Position numbers and translations under genes: made by a program
Shown: positions 41,044 through 47,759 of the stretch, piece by piece
How positions within the stretch are numbered: the stretch's first letter is position 1
How the letters are laid out: the number at the start of each line of letters is the position of its first letter
Notes under the pieces: model-generated
The model's database searches: none
What the model was told of the DNA's origin: nothing
The model's input: only the letters and a program-made list of their open reading frames with translations
Assembly (NCBI RefSeq): GCF_900129665.1
Contig: NZ_FQWL01000001.1
Coordinates: 1 to 64,000 of the forward strand
Source: Flagellimonas flava
GTDB taxonomy: Bacteria; Bacteroidota; Bacteroidia; Flavobacteriales; Flavobacteriaceae
DNA: 64,000 bases
Reading direction: 5' to 3'

Positions 41044-42222
41044 ATGTCTTCAGACAACAGCAAGCGATATGCCCAAAGGGGTGTTTCCGCGTCCAAGGAG
41101 GACGTTCATAATGCCATAAAGAATATTGACAAAGGTTTGTTTCCGAAGGCCTTTTGTAAGATTGTCCCGGATTATCTGACCGGTAGCGAAGACCATTGTC
41201 TGGTCATGCATGCTGATGGCGCTGGAACCAAGTCGTCCCTAGCCTATATGTATTGGAAGGAAACTGGGGATATCTCGGTCTGGAAAGGAATTGCTCAGGA
41301 TGCCTTGATCATGAATATCGATGACCTGATTTGTGTTGGAGCTACAGATAACATAATGCTGTCGTCTACTATTGGGCGAAATAAGAATCTGATACCCGGA
41401 GAGGTGATTTCGGCCATCATCAATGGGACTGAAGAACTTATTGCTGATTTAGGTCAACATGGAATCACCATTCATTCAACGGGCGGGGAGACCGCAGATG
41501 TTGGCGATTTGGTTCGAACCATTATTGTGGATTCAACGGTTACGGCCCGTATGTCACGACAGAATGTTATCGATAATGCCAATATCCGACCGGGTGATGT
41601 GATTGTAGGTTTGGCTTCTTTTGGGCAGGCGACATATGAAAACGAATATAATGGCGGAATGGGAAGCAATGGACTTACCTCGGCCAGACATGATGTCTTT
41701 GGCAAGTACCTTGCCCAGAAATACCCGGAAAGTTTTGATGCTGCTGTGCCAGAGGATTTGGTGTATTCTGGAAACACAAGGCTAACGGATACAGTTGATG
41801 ATGCCCCTTTAGATGCTGGTAAGTTGGTGTTGTCCCCCACTAGAACGTATGCTCCAATAATCAAAGAAGTATTGGGACAGTTTAGTTCGCAGGAAATCCA
41901 TGGGATGGTGCACTGTAGCGGTGGGGCCCAGACCAAAATCCTTCATTTTATTGAGAAAAACCATATTGTCAAGGATAATTTATTCCCGATACCGCCGCTT
42001 TTTAAACTGATCCAGGAACAATCCCAAACCGATTGGAAAGAGATGTACCAAGTGTTCAACTGTGGGCATCGTATGGAATTGTATGTAGACCAATCAGTTG
42101 CGGATGAGATTATTTCCATTTCCAAGGACTTTGGTGTAGAAGCTAGGATTGTTGGTAGAGTGGAGGCTTCGGACGCCAAAAAATTAACCATCCAAAGTGA
42201 GTTTGGCAAGTTTGAATACTAG
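41044..42222 (+). CDS. purM: AIR synthase (phosphoribosylformylglycinamidine cyclo-ligase), PurM-type
   Basis: A 392-residue ATP-dependent enzyme closing the imidazole ring in purine synthesis. It shows RYAQRGVSASKEDVHNAI, a metal/ATP-binding MHADGAGTKSSLAYMY, IAQDALIMNIDDLICVGA, STGGETADVGDLVRT and VHCSGGAQTKILHF. Bacteroidota forms are longer than the roughly 345-residue E. coli enzyme, consistent with this length. It is a single gene between the dehydratase and the redox cluster. Confidence 0.92.
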   Translation: MSSDNSKRYAQRGVSASKEDVHNAIKNIDKGLFPKAFCKIVPDYLTGSEDHCLVMHADGAGTKSSLAYMYWKETGDISVWKGIAQDALIMNIDDLICVGATDNIMLSSTIGRNKNLIPGEVISAIINGTEELIADLGQHGITIHSTGGETADVGDLVRTIIVDSTVTARMSRQNVIDNANIRPGDVIVGLASFGQATYENEYNGGMGSNGLTSARHDVFGKYLAQKYPESFDAAVPEDLVYSGNTRLTDTVDDAPLDAGKLVLSPTRTYAPIIKEVLGQFSSQEIHGMVHCSGGAQTKILHFIEKNHIVKDNLFPIPPLFKLIQEQSQTDWKEMYQVFNCGHRMELYVDQSVADEIISISKDFGVEARIVGRVEASDAKKLTIQSEFGKFEY

Positions 42223-42268
42223 CATACGAATCCCGTTAAATTAGCGTTCTTTCTATAAACCCCACGCT

Positions 42269-42727
42269 ATGGAAAGAAAAGATTTTCTACGAAGTTTGGG
42301 CGCAGGTGCTGCATTTGCCCTTACATTCCCATGTTTAAACGGTTGCTCTACGGATTCTGAGGATTTGGAACAATTTCCTGAACCTGACGGAGTGGACTTT
42401 ACCGTTGACCTCACAGCTCCGGAATCGAGCCCTTTGGAAAGCAACGGTGGCTTCATTTTGGTGAAGTCGGACCCCGGACTTGGATATACTGATATAGTTG
42501 TGGCCAGAAACTTGGAAGGTGAGCTCATCGCCGCAAGTCAGATTTGCAGCCATCAGCAGACGGAAGAAGTCCGTTTCTTGGCACAGGATGGAGGTGTCTT
42601 TAGTTGTTCCACCCATGGTTCCCGATTCAGTCAAAATGGAACCCCATTGAATTCGGTGACCAATAATCCATTACGGGTTTTCAGTACGGAACTTAACGGA
42701 GACAGCCTTAGGGTATTTGAATCATAG
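42269..42727 (+). CDS. Rieske [2Fe-2S] lipoprotein
   Basis: A 152-residue exported protein. The N-terminus ERKDFLRSLGAGAAFALTFPCLNGC combines a weak RK-type twin-arginine-like start with a possible lipobox LNGC. The Rieske cluster ligands are ICSHQ (CxH) and FSCSTHGSRF (CxxH). No Rieske partner oxygenase is near. First gene of a five-gene run with thioredoxin, ApbE, DUF4266 and DUF3570 genes, spaced by 3-17 bp or overlapping, so an envelope redox function is inferred. Confidence 0.9.
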   Translation: MERKDFLRSLGAGAAFALTFPCLNGCSTDSEDLEQFPEPDGVDFTVDLTAPESSPLESNGGFILVKSDPGLGYTDIVVARNLEGELIAASQICSHQQTEEVRFLAQDGGVFSCSTHGSRFSQNGTPLNSVTNNPLRVFSTELNGDSLRVFES

Positions 42728-42738
42728 CATCGTAATTT

Positions 42739-43179
42739 ATGAAACACTTTTTGACCATATTATTTGGTGTTTTGTGCTTTGGTTTGGCCCAAGCGCAACA
42801 TTGGCAGGATAGTTTTGACGACGCGCTCAGCGCGGCAAGTCAGGAGGATAAACCCATAGTATTGGTGTTTTCCGGGTCAGATTGGTGTGGTCCTTGCATT
42901 CGGTTCAAACGAAATATCTTGGATTCAGACGAATTTCTTGAATATGCCGACGAGCACTACGTGCTTTTCAATGCCGATTTTCCCAAAAAGAAAAAAAACC
43001 AACTTTCACCTGAGAAGCTGAATCGGAACAAATCACTTTTTGAGGCCTATAACCCCAAAGGTCATTTTCCGTTGGTGGTAGTGCTGGACAAGGAAAAATC
43101 AGTTTTAGGGACCACTGGGTTCAATAAAAAAGCTTCACCTTCCGATTATATCTTATTGCTCAATGGATTTGTGCAATGA
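42739..43179 (+). CDS. Secreted thioredoxin-family protein
   Basis: A 146-residue protein with a cleavable signal peptide (FLTILFGVLCFGLAQAQ) and a thioredoxin fold carrying CxxC in VFSGSDWCGPCIRFKRNI. The cis-Pro region is NPKGHFPLVVVLDKEK. It is likely a periplasmic disulfide reductase or haem/metal-handling factor. It overlaps the apbE start by 4 bp (ATGA). Confidence 0.9.
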   Translation: MKHFLTILFGVLCFGLAQAQHWQDSFDDALSAASQEDKPIVLVFSGSDWCGPCIRFKRNILDSDEFLEYADEHYVLFNADFPKKKKNQLSPEKLNRNKSLFEAYNPKGHFPLVVVLDKEKSVLGTTGFNKKASPSDYILLLNGFVQ

Positions 43180-44171
43180 GGGCACTTCTGGTTCTCATAT
43201 TCGGCTGGATTTGTTCCCTGTCTTTTGGTCAGGAACCCAATGACGTTACCGTAAAAAAAACCATGAAATTGATGGGGAGCCGGTTTGAAATCACGGTAAT
43301 TGCCCCAAATGAGGACATAGGTTACATCAATATCAACGAGGCGGTATCCGAAATCAAACGGATAGAAAAAATCATTTCTTCTTGGGATGAGACCTCGGAG
43401 ACTTCAAAAATTAATTCCAATGCGGGCATTAGGCCCACTAAAGTGAGTGCAGAACTTTTTGGATTGATAGAACGCGCCAAAAAAATATCAGAAATTACCG
43501 ATGGTGCCTTTGATATTACCTATGCATCCATGGATAACATCTGGAAATTTGATGGGAGCATGGACCGCTCACCTTCTGAAAAGGCAATCCAACAGTCTGT
43601 TTCGAAAATTGGCCACGAAAAAATCATTCTGAATCCTGATGAAAGCACCGTGTTTCTTGAGGAACTAGGCATGCGCATTGGCTTTGGAGCTATCGGTAAG
43701 GGTTATGCTGCGGATAGGGCTAAAGAGCTCTTGATCTCTAAACAGGTAAAAGGGGGAATTATCAATGCGTCTGGGGATCTCACCACTTGGGGCACCAAGA
43801 CAACGGGAGAGAAATGGCTGGTCGGTATTGCCAATCCTTTGAGCAAGGAGAAGGTGTTTAGTTGGTTGCCGGTGGTGGAGTCCTCGGTGGCTACATCTGG
43901 CAATTATGAAAAATTCATAATCCTGAACGGAAAAAAATATTCACATATCATTGATCCTAGGACGGGTTATCCTACTTCTGGAGTTCAGAGTGTATCTGTT
44001 TTTGCCAAACATGCTGAGTTATGTGATGCCTTGGCTACCGCGGTATTTATCATGGGGAAGGATAGTGGTATTCACCTGATCAACCAGATGGATGGCGCAG
44101 AGGCGGTAGTGGTGGATTCGGATAATAAAATCCATAGGAGTACGGGAATAGTATTCAATGACAACCCTTAG
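43176..44171 (+). CDS. apbE: FAD:protein FMN transferase
   Basis: A 331-residue periplasmic ApbE enzyme that attaches FMN covalently to Thr or Ser of target proteins. It has a signal peptide (ALLVLIFGWICSLSFGQ), MKLMGSRFEITVIA, ITDGAFDITYASM, RIGFGAIGKGYAADRA, GGIINASGDLTTWG and HIIDPRTGYPTSGVQSVSV, the standard ApbE motif order with the Mg-binding residues. No neighbour carries a full D-G-x-S/T-G-A-T/S acceptor motif; the DUF4266 protein has only a partial match. Confidence 0.95.
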   Translation: MRALLVLIFGWICSLSFGQEPNDVTVKKTMKLMGSRFEITVIAPNEDIGYININEAVSEIKRIEKIISSWDETSETSKINSNAGIRPTKVSAELFGLIERAKKISEITDGAFDITYASMDNIWKFDGSMDRSPSEKAIQQSVSKIGHEKIILNPDESTVFLEELGMRIGFGAIGKGYAADRAKELLISKQVKGGIINASGDLTTWGTKTTGEKWLVGIANPLSKEKVFSWLPVVESSVATSGNYEKFIILNGKKYSHIIDPRTGYPTSGVQSVSVFAKHAELCDALATAVFIMGKDSGIHLINQMDGAEAVVVDSDNKIHRSTGIVFNDNP

Positions 44172-44180
44172 CTATAAGAC

Positions 44181-44390
44181 ATGAATAAAGTGTTCTATTT
44201 ATTGTGTATTCTAATTTTCACCAGTTCCTGTGTGGCGGTTCGGGAATATGACATGGTATACGTCAACGATCAAGAAATGTTGTTGGGCGCAAGGCCCTGC
44301 GAACGTTTTGAAACCAATTTTCAGATTTATCGCGAAGGCTCTGCTGGTGCCAATGGTGGAAAATCGGGTGGGGGATGCGGATGCAACTAA
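44181..44390 (+). CDS. DUF4266 small lipoprotein
   Basis: A 69-residue protein with signal and lipobox FTSSC (Cys17). The middle (LLGARPCERFETNFQIYREGSAG) and the Gly-rich end NGGKSGGGCGCN are typical of DUF4266, which is regularly linked to apbE and DUF3570 genes. The two terminal cysteines suggest metal or cofactor binding (inference). EGSAGAN resembles an ApbE acceptor motif with the acceptor residue replaced. The gene end overlaps the longest reading of the next gene. Confidence 0.85.
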   Translation: MNKVFYLLCILIFTSSCVAVREYDMVYVNDQEMLLGARPCERFETNFQIYREGSAGANGGKSGGGCGCN

Positions 44391-45733
44391 GGACTAAAAC
44401 AAAAAAGCCTAAGATGGTTCTGTCCAATACGCTAACAATTCGAAAATCCGGATTTGGATTAGCTTTTTGGTTATTGTTGGTTGGTTTAATAAGTCCGGCA
44501 ATTTGGGGACAGCAGACCAATAATTCATACACTAAAAGGGTTTTGGAGGCCAGCGAAGTTGATTTACTTTTCAGTTATTATGACCAGGATGGTCAAAACG
44601 CTGCCGTGACCGGTGGTGAGGGAACAGAGGAGTTGACCGATGCCACCTCTACGTTGGTGTTGCGGATTCCCATGAATGAAAACGATGTACTTACCGTGGA
44701 CGTTGGTTTGTCTGCCTATACCTCTGCATCGTCCAGTAATGTGGATCCCTTGGACGGGGGGAATCTGAATACCACTCCTTTTGATGCTTCTTCAGGGGAG
44801 TCCAGAAAGGATTTGCTTGCCTATTTCAATCCCAGTTATCAGCACAGTTCTACGGATAGAAACTCCATTTGGAGTGCAGACCTATATTTTTCAACAGAAT
44901 ACGATTATTTTTCGTTGGGTTTTGGAGGCAGCTACACTCGGTTGTTCAACGAGAAAAATACAGAGCTAAGCCTTGGTGGACGTGTGTTTTTAGACAAATG
45001 GAATGCGATTTACCCTATAGAGCTTAGACAAGGTTTTTTTGATGATCGGGTTACGGGTAATGGAACATACAATCCTTCTTTTACGCCTTTCCAAAGTGAA
45101 AATAGGAATTCGTATTCAGCATCATTTAGCTTTTCCCAAATTCTAACACAAAAGTTACAGGGTGCTATTTTTGCGGATGTGGTTACGCAAAATGGGCTGT
45201 TGAGCACACCTTTCCAACGCGTTTATTTTGGTGATACCGAAGCTTTTTTTATTGATGATTTCCAATTGGCAGACGACGTAGAACGACTTCCTGATAATAG
45301 GTTCAAAATACCTGTGGGTGGTAGGCTTAATTACTACGTGAATGATTTTATGGTGCTGCGCTCTTATTACCGGTTTTATTGGGACGACTGGGGCATAACC
45401 TCTCACACGGCAAGTTTGGAAGTGCCATTAAAGCTGAACGATAGATTTACCCTGTATCCAAACTATAGGTATTACACACAGTCAGCGGCGGATTATTTCT
45501 ACCCCAAGGAAGGAGCGCTGTCATCCTTTGAATTCTACACCTCCGATTACGATCTGTCCAGCTACTATGCCCATCAATATGGGGTGGGGATTCAATACAA
45601 GGACCTGTTGGCCAATGCAAAGCTATTTTCTTTTGGTTTAAAAACTATTGACCTTAGGTTCAATGCCTATGACAGAAGTGATGGTCTAAACGCCTATATT
45701 ATCTCTCTGGGAACCACTTTTGTGGGAAATTAG
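44375..45733 (+). CDS. DUF3570 outer-membrane beta-barrel protein
   Basis: A 452-residue protein. Met14 (44414) gives a clean signal peptide (SGFGLAFWLLLVGLISPAIWGQ) and is preferred; the upstream ATG overlaps the DUF4266 gene by 16 bp. The rest alternates amphipathic strands (RKDLLAYFNPSYQHSSTDRN, YFSLGFGGSYTRLF, YYVNDFMVLRSYYRFYWDDWG) and ends with a strand like YIISLGTTFVGN, as outer-membrane barrels do. DUF3570 accompanies DUF4266 and ApbE in many bacteria, presumably as the outer-membrane component of the same redox or secretion function. Confidence 0.85.
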   Translation: MRMQLRTKTKKPKMVLSNTLTIRKSGFGLAFWLLLVGLISPAIWGQQTNNSYTKRVLEASEVDLLFSYYDQDGQNAAVTGGEGTEELTDATSTLVLRIPMNENDVLTVDVGLSAYTSASSSNVDPLDGGNLNTTPFDASSGESRKDLLAYFNPSYQHSSTDRNSIWSADLYFSTEYDYFSLGFGGSYTRLFNEKNTELSLGGRVFLDKWNAIYPIELRQGFFDDRVTGNGTYNPSFTPFQSENRNSYSASFSFSQILTQKLQGAIFADVVTQNGLLSTPFQRVYFGDTEAFFIDDFQLADDVERLPDNRFKIPVGGRLNYYVNDFMVLRSYYRFYWDDWGITSHTASLEVPLKLNDRFTLYPNYRYYTQSAADYFYPKEGALSSFEFYTSDYDLSSYYAHQYGVGIQYKDLLANAKLFSFGLKTIDLRFNAYDRSDGLNAYIISLGTTFVGN

Positions 45734-45800
45734 CCTTGGTTTCTTCAAAAAACAATCCAATCAAAAATTGTAAATTCGCATTCCTAACGCGGATTGATTT

Positions 45801-46877
45801 ATGCTTGACAAACTCAACATTGTAAAACAACGTTTTGATGAGGTTTCCGACCTTATCATCCAACCTGATATCATCTCTGACCAGAAAAAGTATGTAAAGC
45901 TCAACAAGGAGTACAAGGACCTTAAGGTATTGGTGGACAAACGGGAAAAATACGTTGAGTTGACCAACAATATTAACGAAGCCGAGGAGATTATTGCGGA
46001 TGGAAGTGATGTCGAGATGGTGGAGATGGCCAAAATGCAACTGGAGGAGGCCAAGGATGGTCTTCCCAAGCTGGAAGAGGAGATTAAATTTCTACTCATA
46101 CCAAAGGACCCTGAAGACGAAAAGGATGTGGTTGTGGAGATCAGGGCAGGAACAGGCGGTGATGAAGCCAGTATTTTTGCTGGAGACCTCTTCCGTATGT
46201 ATACCAAGTATTGCGAATCCAAGGGCTGGAAAACCAACATAATAGATTTGAACGAGGGTACCAGTGGTGGATATAAGGAAATCCATTTTGAAGTGTCTGG
46301 AGAAGATGTCTACGGAACCCTAAAGTTTGAAGCCGGGGTGCATCGTGTGCAACGTGTGCCGCAAACTGAGACCCAGGGACGGGTGCATACCAGTGCGGCC
46401 ACTGTAATGGTGATTCCAGAGGCGGAGGATTTTGACGTTCAAATTGACCCTAAAGATGTTCGAATTGATTACTTCTGCTCATCTGGTCCGGGTGGACAAT
46501 CGGTAAACACAACCTATTCCGCTGTTCGTTTGACACACGTGCCTACAGGATTGGTGGCCCAGTGTCAAGACCAAAAGTCGCAGCACAAGAACAGGGAGAA
46601 GGCTTTTAAGGTGCTTCGATCCAGATTGTACGACCTGGAATTGGCCAAAAAACAGGAAGAGGATGCGGCCAAGCGAAATTCACAGGTAAGTAGTGGCGAT
46701 CGTTCAGCAAAAATTCGAACTTACAATTATCCGCAAGGAAGGGTTACGGACCATAGAATTGGACTTACCCTATATGATTTGCAGAATATTATCAACGGCG
46801 ATGTCCAAAAAATTATCGATGAGCTGATGTTGGTGGAAAATACGGAGAAACTTAAGGAGGCTTCGGAGATTTTTTAA
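45801..46877 (+). CDS. prfA: Peptide chain release factor 1
   Basis: A 358-residue class I release factor reading UAA and UAG. Codon-recognition region [27 protein letters not shown] holds the PxT tripeptide (PQT), and the peptidyl-hydrolysis motif GGQ is in [17 protein letters not shown]. The length is typical. It precedes pyrF by 60 bp. Confidence 0.97.
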
Positions 46878-46937: not shown

Positions 46938-47759
46938 ATGAAAATAGAGCACTTAATTTCCCAAATCAAAAAAAAGAAGTCATTCCTATGTGTCGGTTTG
47001 GACACCGATTTAGACAAGGTGCCACAGCATTTACTTTCTGAGGACGATCCAATTTTCAGCTTCAACAAAGCCATTATTGATGCCACTTGTGAATATTGCG
47101 TAGCATATAAACCCAATATCGCTTTTTATGAGGCCTATGGCCTCAATGGTTGGAAGTCTTTGGAGCGAACCATGGATTATTTGAACGTGGAACACCCGGA
47201 TATATTTACTATAGCCGATGCCAAACGAGGTGATATTGGGAATACATCATTCCGTTATGCAAAGGCATTTTTTGAGACCTTAAACTTTGATTCGATTACC
47301 GTAGCGCCCTATATGGGAAGAGATTCTGTGGAGCCCTTTTTGGAGTTTAAGGACAAGCATACTATTCTATTGGCCCTTACGTCCAACAAAGGTGCTTTTG
47401 ATTTCCAAACCTTGGATGTGGAAGGTAAACAGCTTTATAAATCTGTTTTGCGGACGTCTCAAGGATACAAAAACGCTGAAAATCTGATGTACGTAATCGG
47501 AGCTACAAAGGCGTCCTTCTTGAAAGAGGTAAGGGAAATAGTTCCCGAGAGTTTTTTGTTGGTACCGGGTGTGGGAGCACAGGGAGGTAATTTGCAGGAG
47601 GTCTGCAAATACGGAATGGCAAAAAATATCGGTTTGCTGGTAAATTCTTCCAGAGGTATACTGTACGCCTCTCAAGGTGAGGATTTTGCCGAAAAGGCTG
47701 GGTTAAAGGCGAAAACTATTCAAGAAGAAATGGAGGTTGAACTGGATAGGTTAACCTAA
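46938..47759 (+). CDS. pyrF: Orotidine-5'-phosphate decarboxylase (type 2)
   Basis: A 273-residue enzyme making UMP from OMP. The catalytic [11 protein letters not shown] is the K-x-DIG motif of the longer type 2 subgroup, with [13 protein letters not shown] at the N-terminus and [15 protein letters not shown] near the C-terminus. The prfA-pyrF order is common in flavobacteria. It converges closely on a small minus-strand gene. Confidence 0.95.

Follow-up and report, generated by a model that had tools for sequence, protein, structure and literature searches.

The window analysed here is the first 64,000 nucleotides of contig NZ_FQWL01000001.1 of Flagellimonas flava (NCBI RefSeq assembly GCF_900129665.1, 3.83 Mb). 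Within it, five + strand genes encoding a Rieske protein, a thioredoxin, ApbE, a DUF4266 protein and a DUF3570 protein lie between a gene resembling AIR synthase (AIRS) and prfA-pyrF (Table 1). The original prediction, made from the sequence alone, described five tightly packed genes on one strand in this order, and both the coordinates and a Pfam search, in which all five products score over the cut-off, confirm that description. Along the block, the Rieske and thioredoxin genes are 11 bp apart, thioredoxin and ApbE overlap by 4 bp, 9 bp separate ApbE from DUF4266, and DUF4266 and DUF3570 overlap by 16 bp, or are 23 bp apart if DUF3570 starts at the internal Met at 44414. No promoter- or terminator-like sites were found by scanning the + strand from 42000 to 45800; the scans gave nothing at the cluster start and fewer sites than shuffled sequence, and their sole terminator-like site lies at 47533. 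The DUF4266 protein had been described as Cys-ended; it ends in GGGCGCN, a CXC motif followed by Asn, and has no terminal Cys.

The thioredoxin/ApbE/DUF4266/DUF3570 core of this block is an already published, little-studied flavinylation system. According to the main text of Meheust et al. 2021 (PMC8238504), the DUF3570 protein of Chlorobium luteolum acquires flavin through its cognate ApbE at two [S/T]GA[S/T] sites, and a hybrid thioredoxin/flavin system of uncertain function is proposed. That main text nowhere mentions Rieske, copper, efflux or porin, and literature searches listed no paper on an ApbE cluster with a Rieske protein, nor on one with CusA or copper; a search for DUF4266/DUF3570 yielded one paper. 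The expectation of an envelope redox system in the original prediction holds to the extent that a flavin system fits the block and is in print with these same four families; the five-part path that it drew is not shown, and what emerges instead is a four-part core with a detachable Rieske protein.

Table 1. Features of the five-gene block and its flanks (window coordinates)
Feature	Position	Strand	Evidence
Rieske [2Fe-2S] lipoprotein, exported	42269..42727	+	PF00355, 35.1 bits
Rieske ligands C93, H95, C113, H116	about 42545-42616	+	invariant, 13-row alignment
Thioredoxin-like protein, exported	42739..43179	+	PF13899 Thioredoxin_7, 55.3 bits
Thioredoxin WCGPC motif	about 42886-42897	+	
ApbE, FAD:protein FMN transferase; S241, H257, D284 present	43176..44171	+	PF02424, 283.9 bits
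DUF4266 small lipoprotein; lipobox-like SSC at residue 17	44181..44390	+	PF14086, 59.3 bits
DUF4266 tail GANGGKSGGGCGCN; CXC	44376-44384 (CXC)	+	
DUF3570, predicted 16-strand outer-membrane beta-barrel and predicted flavin acceptor	44375..45733	+	PF12094, 130 bits
DUF3570 strand 3-4 loop, bounded by predicted flavin sites 1 and 2	44726..44803	+	from model
DUF3570 predicted flavin site 1, TSAS, Ser119	codon 44729-44731	+	
DUF3570 predicted flavin site 2, SGES, Ser143	codon 44801-44803	+	
AIR-synthase-like gene, upstream neighbour, locus marker, outside the system	41044..42222	+	PF00586, PF02769; conserved flank
prfA (release factor 1), downstream neighbour, outside the system	45801..46877	+	PF03462, PF00472; conserved flank

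Conservation of the block and of its core

Conservation was followed in samples of the genus, of the family (120 genomes, 43 with DUF3570) and of the phylum (395 genomes, with contexts at 20 hand-picked loci from 18 genomes), as well as in named relatives, the nearest of which belong to Flagellimonas, Allomuricauda and Muricauda in a scan of the best 80 of 575 that leans to close kin. A gene label at a locus denotes a profile match anywhere within the fetched stretch, and loci of different collections may be one organism, as with L179 and L203. The genus regions cover 80 of the 85 listed DUF3570 matches besides the window's own, leaving out the second copy of the F. flava genome (L037) and the weak rows G128, G134, G173 and G177. 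The family regions cover 40 of the 42 other genomes with DUF3570, leaving out G015 and G051 (contig-end fragments); together with the second F. flava copy these give 41 family loci beyond that of the window.

All 60 genomes of the genus sample possess DUF3570 and have a copy of it at the prfA locus (the window and 59 fetched regions); because of this constancy the arrangement of the block is not a matter of chance. The whole block is present at that locus in 55 of the 60, window included. Among the incomplete blocks, L132, L139 and L181 are cut by contig ends, and L133 is cut by a contig end only before the AIRS-like gene. At L179 (1460-1966), in a metagenome-assembled genome of Allomuricauda that is the same organism as L203, a lipoprotein-like gene with no Rieske match stands in the place of the Rieske gene. 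The other 21 fetched DUF3570 copies of the genus lie away from the prfA locus, and a Rieske gene was seen with none of them. The ratio of nonsynonymous to synonymous substitution rates is well below 1 for each block gene in a sample of 14 of the 55 loci, in which 22 to 51 of 91 pairs were usable and the synonymous rate is saturated.

At the 41 family loci, DUF4266 is found in all 41, ApbE in 40 and a short upstream thioredoxin in 38. The original prediction would be contradicted if the five genes were separated in most relatives; the core stays together, whereas the Rieske gene is separable, lying beside 8 of the 41 clusters (9 of 42 with that of the window) and surviving in places without DUF3570 beside it. 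At L312 (8724-9380, + strand), ApbE lies 3' of DUF3570 with one gene between them, a layout shared by L311, L314 and L315; in L312 the intervening gene encodes a NusG_II-domain protein.

The association between DUF4266 and DUF3570 extends across the phylum sample, where 118 of the 395 genomes have DUF3570 and 113 have DUF4266. DUF4266 is never found there without DUF3570 (113 of 113 genomes), and 113 of the 118 with DUF3570 carry DUF4266 (the exceptions being G388, G400, G451, G521 and G537). The pair behaves as obligate, and this co-occurrence, the tightest in the set, speaks for the lipoprotein and the barrel functioning as a single unit. The GANGG and GGGCGCN motifs of DUF4266 are invariant in 42 sequences, and CGC is found at the end of all 222 profile matches. 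An AlphaFold model of DUF4266, with a mean predicted local distance difference test (pLDDT) of 57 and a tail below 50, is too weak for a usable fold. The thioredoxin motif WCxxC is found in 208 of 209 short homologues; the nearest solved chain is 2ju5 (E 3.9e-17), and the closest relatives with solved structures carry the name disulfide isomerase.

Maturation of the small lipoprotein by ApbE, which had been offered as another purpose for the cluster, is not favoured. The FMN (flavin mononucleotide) acceptor in the main text of PMC8238504 is the DUF3570 barrel of C. luteolum, and [ST]GA[ST] occurs in none of the 222 DUF4266 matches; this candidate was rejected. The same motif is absent from 134 Rieske sequences (after residue 30) and from 209 thioredoxins (after residue 20), duplicates included.

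A predicted barrel with two putative flavin sites on one loop

The AlphaFold model of mature DUF3570, from 46 sequences, has a mean pLDDT of 80.7 and a predicted template modelling score of 0.77. Its DSSP line is read as 16 strands, a count that omits the short strands 237-240 and 342-344 and merges 313-315 with 318-324, giving an even-stranded structure with both ends on one side in which every loop of >10 residues comes after an odd-numbered strand. When both ends of a barrel are periplasmic, the loops after odd strands are expected outside; the model predicts an outer-membrane barrel with its flavin sites toward the extracellular side. Outer-membrane barrels head both lists of PDB matches (Foldseek; VIA-align, Z up to 21.9), and the matches listed span many barrel types, including BamA, PgaA, PelB, BcsC, CymA, OmpG and FadL. 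MtrB-type barrels are not among the matches listed, though this listing excludes nothing.

In the model, site 1 closes strand 3 and site 2 precedes strand 4, so that both bound the same 26-residue loop, which is itself poorly modelled (pLDDT near 50). Ser119 and Ser143 are invariant in the 46 DUF3570 sequences; among 27 divergent rows, the site-1 column is Ser in 26 and the site-2 column is variable. Outer loops and strands are similarly conserved (mean 0.773 vs 0.741; permutation p 0.11, not significant).

Site 2 is SGAS in most of the family. The prfA-locus copies of the genus have Glu at this site (SGES) in 59 of 60 cases and Gln (SGQS, at L179) in one, and Croceitalea (L224), on a separate branch, also has Glu. 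On a DUF3570 tree of 156 rows, comprising one DUF3570 per locus and a third of the genus loci, the change from SGAS to SGES arose twice; the hypothesis of a single clade received a p of 0.019 in the approximately unbiased test, run on 43 hand-picked rows for a group that was named after the first tree. Both predicted acceptor serines are kept in the TSAS and SGES sites of the window. Family f18 of the phylum sample (L317, L318) has up to 9 DUF3570 match rows in one genome, partly in tandem. Site 1 is SGAS or TGAS in this family, the alignment frequently shows no site 2, and extra [ST]GA[ST] strings occur elsewhere in some copies.

The Rieske lipoprotein as a separable component

The ligand motif CxH..CxxH is intact in 123 of 124 Rieske homologues, the exception being L302, from another family. 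A twin-basic xFL start is present in 119 of the 124 and a lipobox-like Cys in 122, while a strict RRxF is present in none. The exceptional protein (L302:5014-5511, + strand, family f9) is a cluster Rieske without the second ligand pair, and the DUF3570 of the same cluster is without the site-2 motif. Among named relatives, a Rieske gene is found at 57 of the best 80 of 575 loci, and the Rieske label undergoes 8 changes on the DUF3570 tree.

A search of the family sample with the Rieske alignment gave 18 strong loci in 17 of the 120 genomes, four weaker matches (E 1e-10 to 1e-15) being set aside. Nine of the strong loci lie beside DUF3570 and nine have no DUF3570 adjoining; the Rieske ligands are intact in the latter as well. 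All nine loci without DUF3570 adjoin an AIRS-like gene, with prfA downstream in eight, and they retain Rieske-thioredoxin-ApbE in three cases (L321-L323), Rieske-ApbE in four (L324, L326-L328) and Rieske alone in two (L325, L329). Genomes G057, G103 and G106 among them have no DUF3570 match, and the remaining genomes have one elsewhere.

This distribution lends some colour to the doubtful possibility that the Rieske gene belongs to the AIRS-prfA locus and is only a chance neighbour of an ordinary four-gene flavin module, for it is the most persistent block gene at that locus, as the nine DUF3570-less loci attest, and three Rieske-bearing genomes are without any DUF3570 match. Contrary to such an explanation, Rieske genes also join flavin clusters outside the AIRS/prfA locus, between thioredoxin and ApbE at L046, upstream at L077, at two of eight Arenibacter loci, and at L306 and L310 of family f10; moreover, Rieske and module are retained jointly across the genus. 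The Rieske protein is read here as a modular periplasmic carrier, separable from the core, with a use beyond the DUF3570 barrel.

ApbE with and without a neighbouring barrel

The nearest solved chain to the window ApbE is 7esa (E 4.6e-50). Its active-site residues S241, H257 and D284 sit in conserved columns (the roles of Ser, His and Asp are from an excerpt of PMC12052999, with the numbering matched in this analysis), and T240, G242, Y244 and H257 are identical in all 191 copies linked to DUF3570. The seven orphan copies, at the loci where no DUF3570 adjoins, retain His257 and Asp284, and five of the seven are altered within residues 240-245 (T S G N Y E). More specifically, E245 is changed in 5 of 7 orphans vs 2 of the 191 distinct copies linked to DUF3570 (Fisher 1.8e-7, with kinship ignored and the column chosen after the alignment was seen). 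These sequence differences are support, not proof, for the idea that the DUF3570 barrel holds the ApbE at this locus to its sequence.

The F. flava genome encodes three ApbE proteins, namely the window copy, a copy in a second thioredoxin-ApbE-DUF4266-DUF3570 cluster at C12:647-650 kb, and a copy adjoining Nqr-like genes that include one for an FMN_bind protein, where the remaining Nqr subunits were named by reading and not by Pfam. A single DsbD, at C12:710323, is unlinked to the window cluster. On C5 the same genome encodes one further, isolated FMN_bind protein that contains a DAISGAT site (L039:4753-5301, - strand); ApbE is not in the fetched stretch around it, and it must therefore be served by an ApbE elsewhere.

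Proposed role and alternatives

The best reading of the module, with a probability of about one half, is that of flavin-based outer-membrane electron transfer with an added Rieske carrier, forming a path to the cell surface. In this scheme ApbE would attach FMN to DUF3570 serines at the loop joining strands 3 and 4, FMN transfer to DUF3570 being in print for C. luteolum in the main text of PMC8238504. The predicted place of DUF3570 is the outer membrane, where its 16 strands would form a barrel carrying the flavins in the lumen or at the outward opening. DUF4266, the obligate partner by co-occurrence, would contact this barrel and bring it a CXC thiol pair. Thioredoxin may pass inner-membrane electrons, probably from a DsbD-type protein or quinol, to DUF4266, from which they would proceed to FMN and outward. 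The Rieske protein could act as a second, separable periplasmic carrier able to feed or drain the same path, and the acceptor, outside the cell or at its surface, might be metal ions or another oxidant. A bolder form of the scheme, put forward tentatively and with clearly less confidence, makes DUF3570 a heme-free outer-membrane conduit. One or two FMNs would be bound covalently to its own loop on the extracellular side, attached by ApbE prior to assembly, and the threaded CXC tail of its obligate lipoprotein DUF4266 would provide the wiring from within; in one clade the Rieske protein could supply single electrons instead.

Several considerations weigh against electron transfer to the surface. 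The direction, donor and acceptor of the electrons are inferred, and the topology of DUF3570 is a prediction from its model. Neither predicted flavin site of the window (TSAS and SGES) matches [ST]GA[ST] exactly. A compensating change of ApbE in the SGES lineages is not clear in a comparison of 63 SGES copies with 39 SGAS copies with Rieske and 65 SGAS copies without it, the differences being mostly conservative and by clade. The Rieske gene persists, ligands intact, at half of its strong loci (9 of 18) without an adjoining DUF3570. As regards the orphan ApbE proteins, besides the after-the-fact choice of E245 and the disregard of kinship, two of the seven (L321 and L322) are unchanged; over 65 conserved columns the orphans fall within the linked range (linked maximum 26); between 7 and 17 of the 191 linked copies have as many departures as the five altered orphans; and six of the seven orphan-bearing genomes keep a DUF3570 elsewhere.

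Some clusters have neighbours suggestive of metal handling, in which the DUF4266 CXC motif and the flavin barrel would manage the redox state of Cu, Ag or Fe at the outer membrane as the partner of a metal efflux or uptake system, and not as a general exit for electrons. The raw count shows efflux genes of the resistance-nodulation-division (RND) type close to 10 of 62 clusters, spread over three families. The genes are CusA-like near L043, L050, L056, L059, L060, L302, L307 and L320 and CusB-like near L044 and L052, with Pfam having been run for the L043 pair and the L302 CusB only; a CusB-like gene is directly upstream of the module in five cases (L043, L050, L056, L307 and L302). An ArsP-type permease adjoins L044, and VIT1 iron transporters are found in 25 clusters according to the main text of PMC8238504. 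Set against these neighbours, the fetched stretch is free of CusA- and CusB-like genes in 52 of the 62 clusters, and eight of the ten Cus-linked cases belong to one 15-row clade, so that there may be only three independent cases. The cluster of the window has no Cus-like gene beside it, and the three RND matches of its genome are all on contigs other than that of the window (14 genomes have 3 to 26 match rows each, some genes being split across rows). Metal handling is judged unlikely.

Less likely again is a system of thiol quality control, in which thioredoxin, the CXC motif of DUF4266 and the flavin would constitute an outer-membrane oxidase or repair pathway for protein thiols with FMN delivering to oxygen, for although almost every protein in the set keeps its CXC or WCxxC motif and the nearest solved relatives of the thioredoxin bear the name of disulfide isomerases, such a system would need no covalent flavin on a barrel loop, and thioredoxin is missing from some ApbE-bearing loci and retained in others without DUF3570.

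If electron transfer to the cell surface is the correct reading, a flavin barrel with a CXC lipoprotein would represent a widespread heme-free route, found in 118 of the 395 phylum genomes and in all 60 genus genomes sampled. The core is ordinary and the addition of the Rieske protein unusual; the analysis yields a testable hypothesis for DUF3570. The obligate pairing, and the change of ApbE where the barrel is lacking, make the role of DUF3570 testable with regard to flavin site, topology, partner and acceptor.

Comparison with known systems

Known electron routes over the outer membrane are mostly multiheme cytochromes. Conduits of the MtrCAB type are multiheme complexes with an outer-membrane barrel that carry redox cofactors across the outer membrane, and the proposed working of the window system is similar in that a barrel would conduct by redox cofactors over that membrane. 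Unlike these conduits, this gene set includes no heme protein, and the barrel itself would bear the cofactor, covalently bound FMN. A second likeness is to NqrC and other FMN_bind proteins, to which FMN is attached by the same enzyme family, ApbE; the target in the window would be a beta-barrel, however, and not an FMN_bind domain, and the Nqr-like FMN_bind gene of this genome has its own ApbE nearby.

The closest resemblance is to the system in the main text of Meheust et al. 2021 (PMC8238504). The window has the same four families clustered, including the CXC lipoprotein DUF4266, and no DsbD adjoins them, as in the 316 clusters counted there without DsbD, which is optional in the published clusters. 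It differs in adding a Rieske lipoprotein and in having TSAS and SGES as its predicted flavin sites in place of [S/T]GA[S/T]. New here with respect to that system are the obligate pairing of DUF4266 with DUF3570, the 16-strand model with both predicted sites on one loop, the modular Rieske protein, the change in orphan ApbE proteins and the SGES site.

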